Shown here piece after piece: positions 15,291 through 37,841 of a stretch of 64,000 bases of DNA (position 1 is the first letter of the stretch; each line of letters opens with the position of its first letter). The stretch spans positions 645,501 to 709,500 of the forward strand of contig NZ_CP150637.1 of NCBI RefSeq assembly GCF_038500265.1, written 5' to 3'. This DNA is from Ignatzschineria larvae DSM 13226 (GTDB lineage: Bacteria > Pseudomonadota > Gammaproteobacteria > Cardiobacteriales > Wohlfahrtiimonadaceae). Below the pieces are notes generated by a model. The model saw nothing but the letters and a program-made list of their open reading frames with translations, made no database searches and was not told the DNA's origin. A program made the position numbers and the translations under genes.

Positions 15291-15940
15291 TAGGACTCCA
15301 TTTTTAGAAATTTCATACTTTAAAAGTACAGTTAAAGTTTATAGCCATTCCGGTTTAAGAAAATTAACAATAGTTGCTATATAAAGATTCATACGCCTTG
15401 CAAACATTTTGAATCAATAGTTTAACATCAATGTCATTATAAGACCGGTTTCACTATATTTTTAGTTCTGTATCACTTTACATGAGTTTATGTGATTTTA
15501 AATATTATTTGTAAAATAAAACTTATTTAATTAATTTAGTAATGTGTTAATTAATATGTTAATTAATTAATTAATTTAATTAATGATTTAAATACCATTA
15601 ATTAAATATTAATCATATATTGATCTGCTATGGATGTCCAATATTTAGTCTAATGTTATGAAATCTATCCTTTGAAATTTAGAAATTCTTAATCTTGAGG
15701 AGAAGTGTTAACCCCTCATTTTGATTTCTTAAACTGATTTAATCAATGTGGTGTGTGAAATTTTCATCACGTTTTGATGTTTATATGACTTAAGTTCTTG
15801 TTTTTGTCTGAAATTTACCAATTTCTAACAAATAGTTGATTTTTATTTCAGATAAATATGCAATAATCACAATTAGTTAGTGCTTTAGTAGTAGTGAGTT
15901 TTTGTTATTATGGACATTTATTTTTCAATGGAGGATTTTT
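15291..15940. other. 650-bp AT-rich intergenic region
   Basis: There is no credible gene here. From about 15520 to 15620 the sequence is almost entirely A/T with repeated TTAATTAA-type words, each a perfect palindrome. A weak inverted repeat (TGAGG...CCTCA) lies near 15695. The right end must hold the promoter of the YagU-like gene; no convincing -35/-10 pair could be fixed. Confidence 0.5.
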
Positions 15941-16968: not shown

Positions 16969-19044
16969 GTGTCAAAATCAATTACATTGACCGCTCTCCT
17001 TGAGTGGCTAGAGAGCAAAAAATCTTCTTGGAAACCGGAATATTTTGAAGCGTGTATCGCATTTCAAGATCATCCGCTCTTTAAAATTGCTCTAGAAACA
17101 GCTTACTATCTAGAGAAATTAGATATTGAAGCATTACCCCAAGTGGCGACGATTCTCTTTATTGTCGGCGCACCGGTTGAAGCACAGCCTGAATCAACTC
17201 GCAAATTTATCCAATATTTAGCCGTCGTCAATCAACTAACGTCGGGCACGATCTCTCACGAAAAATCTCCAGAAACCTTGCGTAAAATGTTCTTAGCCTT
17301 TGCGGAAGATGTGCGCGTGATTGTGGTAATGCTTGCTTATCAAGTCATCATTATGCGTAATGCGCGGGATTCTCAAGAGGAGAAACAACGGGCGATTGCG
17401 CAAAATACCAATACTATTTTCGCACCAATTGCGAACCGTTTAGGGTTATCCGGTATCAAATGGGAACTTGAGGATTATGCTTTTCGTTTCTTAGAGCCAG
17501 AATTGTATCGAGAAATTGCTTCTAAGCTAGATGGAAAACGTAGTGTTCGAGAAGCGTATATTCAAAGTGTGATCGGTCGATTAGAAGCATTGCTTCAAGA
17601 TCATAAGATTGAAGCGCAAGTCACGGGTCGGGTAAAACATATTTATAGTATCGCCCGTAAAATGCGTCAGAAAAATCTCGCTTTTGAACAGCTCTATGAT
17701 ATTCGTGCGGTGCGGATTTTAGTGGATAGTACGGCGGATTGCTATGCCGTTTTAGGGATGATTCACGAATTATGGGTGCCGATTCCGCGGGAATTTGATG
17801 ATTATATTGCCAACCCTAAGCCTAACGGTTATCAATCATTGCATACCGTTGTGCTTGCACCGGAAGATCGAACTTTAGAGGTGCAAATTCGGACTCATAA
17901 AATGCACCAAGATGCAGAGATGGGGGTTGCTGCCCATTGGAAATATAAAGAGGGTCGCGGTACTTCTATTGATCAAGCGGACTTGAACTGGTTGCGGGAT
18001 CATCTTAATCGCGTGCTAGAAGAGGGCGAAGAGCTCATTACCGAAGAATCGATTTTCAATGAAAATGTCTATGTAATGACACCGGCGGGTGAGCCGATTG
18101 AACTCATTGCCGGCTCTACGCCCCTTGATTTTGCCTATAAAATTCACACAGGTTTAGGGAATCGTTGCCGCGGGGCGAAAGTTAATGGCGCGATTGTACC
18201 ACTCACTTACGTCTTACAAAATCGAGATGTGGTTGAGATTTTAACCGGAAAAGTGCCGAACCCTAGTCGAGATTGGATGTCGCCTCATCTAGGCTATACC
18301 GGTTCAAGTCGCACTCGTTCTAAGATTCGGGCGTGGTTTAGAGCGCAAGAGATGGAAAGCAATCTGCAAGCGGGTAAGCAGATGGTAGAGAAAGAGTTCG
18401 CTCGCCTGAATATCCGGCTTTCAGATGAGGAGCTCAAACGCCTCGCCGGTAAGCTTCATTGTACCGGTATTAATGATCTCTATGCGCAAGTAGGTGCCGG
18501 CGATATCACGATGGCGCAGCTTATTTCACGCTTGCCGGGAGAGAAGCCTAAAAATAACTTCGATCCTGAATTGATGGTGCGTCCTCAGAGTAAAAAAGCG
18601 CCAAGCGGGATTCAAGTAAAAGGAATGGGGAAATTATTAACGACCATTGCCACTTGCTGTAAGCCCGCACCGCCAGATTTGATTGGGGGATACATTACCA
18701 TTAATCGAGGCGTGACGATTCATCGGCTCAACTGTGTTAACTATCAAAATATGCTGGAGCAGAATCCGGAGCGGGGTATTGATGTGGATTGGGGCACTAG
18801 CGATGAACGCTTAGTAGAGGCCGATATTCACGTTACTGCTTATGCGAATGTGGACTTACTGCAAGAGATCAGCCAATTGGTATCTGCGGAACATCTGAAG
18901 ATCACCAATATGGATATGAAGCAAGAGAGCGATGATACTCGTTCCATTAGTTTCACGTTGGAGATTAAACACGTAGATCAGTTGAGTCGATTACTTGATC
19001 GAATCAATCAAATTCCGGCGGTACTCAAAGCCTACCGGCGATAG
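16969..19044 (+). CDS. relA: (p)ppGpp synthetase RelA
   Basis: This 691-residue ribosome-associated stringent-response enzyme makes (p)ppGpp from GTP/GDP and ATP on amino-acid starvation. It begins with GTG preceded by GGAGAAG. The N-terminal hydrolase-like domain lacks the His-Asp metal motif, so hydrolysis is not expected. The synthetase domain carries EFDDYIANPKPNGYQSLHT; the acidic EFDD (275-278) is the RelA-type signature, as opposed to the RxKD of SpoT. The TGS domain starts near 365 (VYVMTPAGEPIELIAG), then helical and zinc-finger-like regions (CCKPAPPDLIGGY) and a C-terminal ACT domain (about 615-690). A perfect terminator follows. A SpoT hydrolase must be encoded elsewhere. Confidence 0.94.
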   Translation: MSKSITLTALLEWLESKKSSWKPEYFEACIAFQDHPLFKIALETAYYLEKLDIEALPQVATILFIVGAPVEAQPESTRKFIQYLAVVNQLTSGTISHEKSPETLRKMFLAFAEDVRVIVVMLAYQVIIMRNARDSQEEKQRAIAQNTNTIFAPIANRLGLSGIKWELEDYAFRFLEPELYREIASKLDGKRSVREAYIQSVIGRLEALLQDHKIEAQVTGRVKHIYSIARKMRQKNLAFEQLYDIRAVRILVDSTADCYAVLGMIHELWVPIPREFDDYIANPKPNGYQSLHTVVLAPEDRTLEVQIRTHKMHQDAEMGVAAHWKYKEGRGTSIDQADLNWLRDHLNRVLEEGEELITEESIFNENVYVMTPAGEPIELIAGSTPLDFAYKIHTGLGNRCRGAKVNGAIVPLTYVLQNRDVVEILTGKVPNPSRDWMSPHLGYTGSSRTRSKIRAWFRAQEMESNLQAGKQMVEKEFARLNIRLSDEELKRLAGKLHCTGINDLYAQVGAGDITMAQLISRLPGEKPKNNFDPELMVRPQSKKAPSGIQVKGMGKLLTTIATCCKPAPPDLIGGYITINRGVTIHRLNCVNYQNMLEQNPERGIDVDWGTSDERLVEADIHVTAYANVDLLQEISQLVSAEHLKITNMDMKQESDDTRSISFTLEIKHVDQLSRLLDRINQIPAVLKAYRR

Positions 19045-19066
19045 TCAATATCCTCATCAATCATAG

Positions 19067-19096
19067 AAGCTCTAAAGATTGTTTTAGAGCTTTTTT
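19067..19096 (+). terminator. Intrinsic terminator of relA
   Basis: A 10-bp stem AAGCTCTAAA...TTTAGAGCTT with a short loop is followed by a T run, 23 bp after the relA stop and just before the tandem repeats. Confidence 0.9.
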
Positions 19097-19100
19097 GTTG

Positions 19101-19973
19101 GCTGTTTATCTGAAACGACTAAGAAAATTAATCGCATCGCCGGGGAGAATGACCTCGTTCTTATCGCAATCGTGTGCCGGCATTATGGCAATCTCTCAAG
19201 GCCTATTCGTTCAATCTCTGCTATTGAGTTTGAGAGATTGAAAAATCACTCAATGGCGGGCGCGGGATTTTCATGGATTTGCAAACATTCTATCCCGCTA
19301 TTAATCAGCTTTTATTTGAACCGACTAAGAGGAAAAATCGCATCGCCGGGGAGAATGACCTAGTTCTTATCGCAATCGTGTGCCGGCATTATGGCAACCT
19401 CTCAAGGCTTATTCGTCCATTAATTACTGTAAAGTTTGAGAGATTGAAAGATCACTCAATGGCGGGCGCGGGATTTTTATGGATTTGCAAACATTCTATC
19501 CCGCTATTAATCAGCTTTTATCTGAAACGACTAAGAAGATTAATCGCATCGCCGGGGAGAATGACCTCGTTCTTATCGCAATCGTGTGCCGGCATTATGG
19601 CAATCTCTCAAGGCCTATTTGTTCAATCTCTACTATTGAGTTCGAGAAATCAGAAGGTCGCTCAATGGCGGGCGCGGGATTTTCATGGATTTGCAAACAT
19701 TCTATCCCGCTATTAATCAGCTTTTATCTGAAACGACTAAGAAGATTAATCGCATCGCCGGGGAGAATGACCTCGTTCTTATCGCAATCGTGTGCCGGCA
19801 TTATGGCAACCTCTCAAGGCTTATTCGTCCATTAATTACTGTAAAGTTTGAGAGATTGAAAAATCACTCAATGGCGGGCGCGGTATTTTCATGGATTTGC
19901 AAATATTCTATCCCGCTATTAATCAGCTTTTATCTGAAACGACTAAGAAGATTAATCGCATCGTCGGGAGATG
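19101..19973. repeat. Tandem repeat, 206-bp unit, about 4.2 copies
   Basis: The word ATCGCATCG recurs at 19131, 19337, 19543, 19749 and 19955, an exact 206-bp period with no visible length variation. Most of the unit is nearly identical between copies. A stretch of about 45 bp varies and alternates: copies 1 and 3 share one version, copies 2 and 4 another. Each unit holds an inverted repeat GCGGGAT...ATCCCGC. Copy 1 has a perfect 11-bp pair CAATCTCTCAA...TTGAGAGATTG (19189-19199 and 19230-19240), imperfect in the others. Since 206 is not a multiple of 3, the overlapping plus-strand reading frames here shift at every unit and are best treated as non-coding. The last copy breaks off at about 19973. 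Confidence 0.93.
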
Positions 19974-37353: not shown

Positions 37354-37841
37354 GAGATCTCCTTTATAGGTCATCATCTAAAATCTTAGAAAGTTTCAAA
37401 CACAAATCGAAGAGTTAAAATAATACAAAAATAGATTAACTCCTGTAAATATATATAATATTTTCACTTCAAATATTCTGCACTGAGCAAATGCCGTAAA
37501 AGCCTCTTTTTTGCTACTATTTAACTGGTTATAAGGGTATCATACTACTACTCTAATTGGTATTTTGTTGCGCGCTGGAACCTGTTTTTTTAAAAATATC
37601 TTGATCTAGTTTCCATTTTTTAATTAAAAATAATTCAATTGTGAAGAGATAAAAAAACCTCTAGCTTGCAAAAGCGAAGTTAGAGGTTTCTTATGAGCGA
37701 ATAGAAATAGATCTACTGGCCTGGTAAAATATTACCGTAATAATATCATCAAAATAATATCATCAAAATAATATAATCTAAATAATATTATTACAATTTA
37801 TAATATATCTTATGATATATCTTATGGTATATCATTATCTT
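37354..37841. other. 488-bp intergenic region with terminator and short A/T tandem repeats
   Basis: No gene is seen. The left part must hold the DASS transporter promoter (minus strand). A terminator for the carboxypeptidase gene lies at 37651-37690. From about 37736 to 37785 a 14-bp unit (ATAATATCATCAAA) is repeated about three times with decay, followed by two to three copies of a 13-bp ATATATCTTATG-like unit up to about 37835. Confidence 0.6.
37651..37690 (-). terminator. Intrinsic terminator of the dacA-like gene
   Basis: On the minus strand AACCTCTA...TAGAGGTT with internal pairing is followed by seven U. It lies about 150 bp after the stop codon. Confidence 0.8.

Follow-up and report, generated by a model that had tools for sequence, protein, structure and literature searches.

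The 206-bp tandem repeat block downstream of relA in Ignatzschineria larvae is, with a probability of roughly 70%, a BIME-like array, in which REPIN-like units made of two inverted, related modules, each an imperfect palindrome, are repeated in tandem. A preliminary description treated the block as a peculiarity of the relA locus and as a stand-alone unit; instead, it is one site of a dispersed family found throughout the genus. The best explanation is an old family of REP-like palindromes at gene ends whose arrays are at present expanding and collapsing locally through recombination among their repeats.

The relA-side array and its two modules

Tandem Repeats Finder (TRF) placed the array at 19105-19968 of the window, i.e. 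the whole 64-kb stretch of DNA that was analyzed, with a period of 206, 4.2 copies, 89% matches, no indels and a score of 1434. It is the top TRF array of the window by a wide margin and the sole strong one with a long period. The constant period of four units plus a partial one was thus confirmed, whereas the word "exact" used earlier applies to the period and not to the sequence, as the four units share 88-95% pairwise identity. The partial fifth unit comprises 41-45 nt. Elsewhere in the window, TRF listed low-complexity TTAA-rich repeats at 15523-15613, ahead of a gene at 15902, and two adjoining AT-rich short tandem repeats with periods of 14 and 12 at 37739-37838. The features of the relA locus are as follows.

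16969..19044, + strand: relA/spoT-type gene, 5' of the array (ORF; Pfam RelA_SpoT, TGS, HD_4, ACT_4)
19055..19104, + strand: terminator-like hairpin of relA with T run, immediately 5' of the array (inverted repeat, sequence)
19105..19969, + strand: whole array, four 206-bp units and a partial fifth (TRF, unit comparison)
19120..19183, + strand: B module of unit 1, with core GCCGG...CCGGC (nhmmer)
19233..19312, + strand: A module of unit 1, hairpin P1 followed by core GCGGGAT...ATCCCGC (nhmmer)
19326..19389, + strand: B module of unit 2 (nhmmer)
19439..19518, + strand: A module of unit 2 (nhmmer)
19532..19595, + strand: B module of unit 3 (nhmmer)
19645..19724, + strand: A module of unit 3 (nhmmer)
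19738..19801, + strand: B module of unit 4 (nhmmer)
19851..19930, + strand: A module of unit 4, stem altered to GCGGTAT (nhmmer, sequence)
19931..19969, + strand: partial fifth unit, A-to-B junction and start of B; kept by I. ureiclastica

The array starts a few bases 3' of the relA terminator hairpin, and ~290 bp separate its end from the next gene, which encodes an ABC transporter ATPase that is MetN-like by sequence. As stated in the preliminary description, no transposase is found near the block, and its GC content (42.9%) exceeds that of the flanking gaps (33% and 28%), yet the average of the whole window is 41%. The linker between B and A is identical in units 2 and 4 and similar in units 1 and 3. 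This pairwise match suggests that a 412-bp block of two units probably underwent duplication, followed by exchange between the units, in agreement with the local amplification proposed earlier. An assembly artefact, which the preliminary description had named as a possible refutation, is unlikely because the I. larvae DSM 13226 genome (CP150637.1; one contig of 2,563,334 bp) was assembled from ONT (217x) and Illumina reads (PMC11556009), the units are not identical to one another, and the independent I. ureiclastica assembly contains matching arrays at most of these sites.

Each 206-bp unit consists of a B module, a linker and an A module. In nhmmer profile comparisons, A matches B once it is reverse-complemented, so that the two related modules of ~65-80 nt are inverted to each other and alternate in orientation along the array. 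Both contain a small hairpin, P1, and after it a core of ~45 nt that is shut by a near-invariant GC stem. The inverted repeat GCGGGAT...ATCCCGC, previously assigned to every unit, is the stem of the A module and is intact in units 1-3 but altered in unit 4; the second module with its GCCGG...CCGGC stem and the inverted relation between A and B had been overlooked. Most A-to-B junctions of the family belong to either a short (~12-19 nt) or a long (~55-78 nt) class, whereas the B-to-A linkers vary more between arrays and are often constant inside one array, the two labels being swapped for arrays on the minus strand.

The P1 hairpin is indicated to covary. In P1 of A, both-side changes occurred in 26 cells compared with 7.8 in shuffles, a control that gives no probability for these related copies, and 95% of the cells were paired (both helices) compared with 41-62% with slid partners. 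The number of pairs with a both-side change was 5 versus 3.4 in shuffles, which is not unusual alone, and some G-U intermediates were present. The P1 hairpin of B was spotted by eye. In addition, a short terminator-like hairpin, CGGGG...CCCCG-TTCTT, was found in the B cores of 57 of 99 modules and in 1 of 99 shuffled sequences. It may be a by-product, its 5' half overlapping the invariant stem.

A dispersed family at gene ends in Ignatzschineria

When one unit was used as a query against the whole I. larvae genome, as the preliminary description had proposed, 93 matches were obtained. Covariance models, with 150 candidates scored per genome, detected at least 105 A and at least 110 B modules, of which a few sites may be double-counted since the two models resemble each other. 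In a census based on searches and selected stretches of the genome, 43 arrays were mapped, amounting to ~20.6 kb in total, and the searches indicate a few more. Thus, arrays of this kind, earlier considered uncommon, exist in more than 40 related copies in this genome alone. Identity between copies is 88% inside an array and 70% between arrays, and some sites carry lone B-A units of ~160 bp. Dense clusters with an array between nearly all adjacent genes were seen at contig positions ~100700-113500, 165000-171600 and 505900-515000, and most arrays fall in the first 1.06 Mb of the contig.

The 43 mapped arrays all lie between genes or touch the ends of genes. Convergent gaps are over-represented relative to other gaps of at least 100 bp (19 of 41 versus 19 of 132; odds ratio 5.1, P=5e-5); genes were taken as plain ORFs of at least 90 aa, so that a few neighbors may be wrong. 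A shortage of divergent gaps among the array sites was not significant (P=0.16), and the orientation of the arrays was unrelated to gene direction. The neighboring genes are of varied kinds, with many housekeeping genes among them; a profile comparison of the neighbors revealed no recurrent gene or transposase family. A few neighbors matched defense profiles (Fic-type SoFic, reverse-transcriptase DRT, GajB-like helicase and AbiEii), some of which probably reflect profile overlap, e.g. GajB on an ordinary UvrD helicase.

Matches were obtained in all nine Ignatzschineria genomes searched, although some gave no more than two to four per model. The A and B models gave no match in nine genomes of other genera of the same family, and with stricter filters no match outside Ignatzschineria was found among 274 Gammaproteobacteria genomes. 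A plasmid or phage origin was considered and rejected, as no plasmid or phage copy of the modules was matched. The other Ignatzschineria species have divergent versions, some of them in tandem, with periods from ~110 to 470 bp; the periods recorded were ~112, 157-160, 192, 202, 220-234, 297-308, 389 and 444 bp.

Conservation and turnover of the array sites

I. ureiclastica, with a RelA 99% identical to that of I. larvae, carries almost all of the I. larvae arrays at corresponding sites, but the number of modules usually differs between the two species. Nearly all sites common to the two species are, as judged from this comparison, old. At relA, I. ureiclastica possesses a remnant of ~48 nt that corresponds to the end of the array. 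Such a remnant would be expected if the I. ureiclastica array had collapsed by recombination; alternatively, the I. larvae array could have grown from a remnant-like seed.

Among 58 orthologous terminal modules, divergence was 3.6% at conserved positions, 6.3% in the flanks, which include coding sequence, and 15.4% at variable positions. The low value at the conserved positions indicates that they are constrained, and gene conversion between copies could contribute. At six loci with equal copy number the modules had diverged more than the flanks, which is explained by the different behavior of the two classes of positions.

Relation to known repeats, and alternative explanations

REP modules are 20-40 bp long and have their palindrome tagged at one end with GTAG or CGTC, the Y1 transposase RAYT is their usual mobilizing partner in both REPs and REPINs, and BIMEs bind gyrase, IHF or DNA polymerase I. 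The Ignatzschineria modules, in contrast, are about twice as long and have an extra hairpin, and alignments of 46 A and 45 B sequences revealed no conserved GTAG or CGTC tag. RAYT (PF01797) was detected in none of the nine Ignatzschineria genomes, although the same search was positive in E. coli and four other controls, and IHF consensus sites were not in excess in the arrays (1 versus 2.4 expected).

On the other hand, the arrangement of the arrays agrees closely with known clusters. BIME/REP clusters in enterobacteria and Xanthomonas campestris are tandem, regularly spaced, alternating palindromes, mostly located 3' of genes, and BIMEs are intergenic with two module variants and linkers in fixed length classes (PMC2817692, PMC3733652); REPs lie mainly in convergent or co-directional gaps (PMC3733652). 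The Ignatzschineria arrays resemble BIME-2, the atypical BIMEs and the X. campestris clusters in the alternation and regular spacing of palindromic modules, the two module variants, the linker length classes, the mostly downstream position relative to genes and the intergenic tandem copies, and they match the high copy number and the convergent or co-directional placement as well. In Pseudomonas fluorescens SBW25, REPINs and REPs form ordered tandem clusters, one of them with a 184-bp period built from two REP types (PMC3116915). The Ignatzschineria unit shares with these REPINs the two inverted modules round a less conserved spacer and the ordered tandem clusters. REPINs are scattered, however, whereas the array sites are common to species, and unlike in REPINs the A and B cores lack extra complementarity inside an array: a single long hairpin in which A pairs with its own B was not preferred over pairs from different arrays. 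CGTC-tagged REPs are likewise intergenic palindromes, apparently without a dedicated transposase (PMC3733652), a feature shared by the Ignatzschineria modules, but they are shorter and bear the CGTC tag. Thus, the Ignatzschineria arrays are built and behave like a BIME array but are not filed under the described REP superfamilies, because the tag, the 20-40 bp size and RAYT are all lacking.

Conceivable, at clearly lower probability, is a genus-specific class of two-hairpin palindromes that does not derive from described REPs, was spread by an enzyme other than RAYT, and now has a role between convergent genes in the form of structured DNA or RNA. It is improbable that the unit arose as a MITE, a miniature of some DDE-type insertion sequence with B and A forming its long terminal inverted repeats, and was amplified in tandem after insertion. 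The unit resembles MITEs such as NEMIS and ERIC in being a short, non-coding, intergenic element in which inverted paralogous ends flank a variable linker, and the lone B-A units would fit this origin. Yet each end is palindromic by itself with its own hairpin, tandem arrays dominate, and the sites are old and common to species; at the sites compared with I. ureiclastica and among the array neighbors, neither a parent insertion sequence, a clean empty site with target duplication nor a recurring transposase family was found, and no plasmid or phage copy was matched. Similarly doubtful is the proposal that the arrays serve primarily to terminate transcription or to stabilize 3' ends and are selected for this role rather than as repeats. 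The enrichment in convergent gaps, the B hairpins and the covarying P1 argue for it, as do 23 genes that end within 40 bp of an array and for which no own terminator was found. However, relA and 24 other gene ends already have a terminator before the array, the B hairpins differ from ordinary terminators in their short T runs and conserved inner loop, and copy number varies freely between the sister species. The independence of array orientation from gene direction also counts against a one-directional role.

A structured non-coding RNA, for example tandem small RNAs, would be consistent with the covariation in P1 and its G-U intermediates but is very unlikely. Promoters are not in excess at the arrays, the folding energy of the unit is not unusual, the modules alternate in orientation and the arrays run both ways relative to genes. 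A known RNA family was rejected for the array, where Rfam matches were at chance level and none reached the gathering score; the only match in the window was a tRNA elsewhere. That the block encodes a repeat protein can practically be dismissed: plus-strand open frames of 105-147 aa do exist, but a period of 206 is not divisible by 3, stops interrupt all six frames within the array, no Pfam match above cut-off and no PHROG were obtained, and linkers of many lengths in related arrays break any frame. The block is therefore non-coding with the reading frames as by-products, as the preliminary description had held, and no coding signal, which would have contradicted it, was found.

For the BIME-like array, the following course is proposed. 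The modules would formerly have spread as non-autonomous palindromic elements, driven by a transposase that has since been lost or has escaped recognition. Today, the arrays would gain and lose units through replication slippage or unequal recombination at their direct repeats, a turnover presumably accompanied by sequence exchange between copies, and selection would partly keep the conserved module positions. More tentatively, the arrays may have a function at gene ends in the form of structured DNA or RNA, such as aiding transcription ending or insulating neighboring genes, as proposed for BIMEs, and a role of the terminator-like B hairpins at transcript ends is possible. The protein-binding, RNA and recombination readings offered in the preliminary description each keep some plausibility, given the covarying P1, the constraint on conserved positions and the unstable copy number.

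No earlier description of the repeat family was found in the literature on Ignatzschineria repeats that was searched, which covered only a minority of subscription journals, and the Ignatzschineria modules appear to be an undescribed dispersed repeat family. The persistence of BIME-like arrays in a genus devoid of RAYT bears on how such arrays originate and are maintained without the usual transposase. As copy number differs between sister species, the arrays could also serve as typing markers, a use that would concern wound- and myiasis-associated Ignatzschineria, I. larvae itself being fly-associated.
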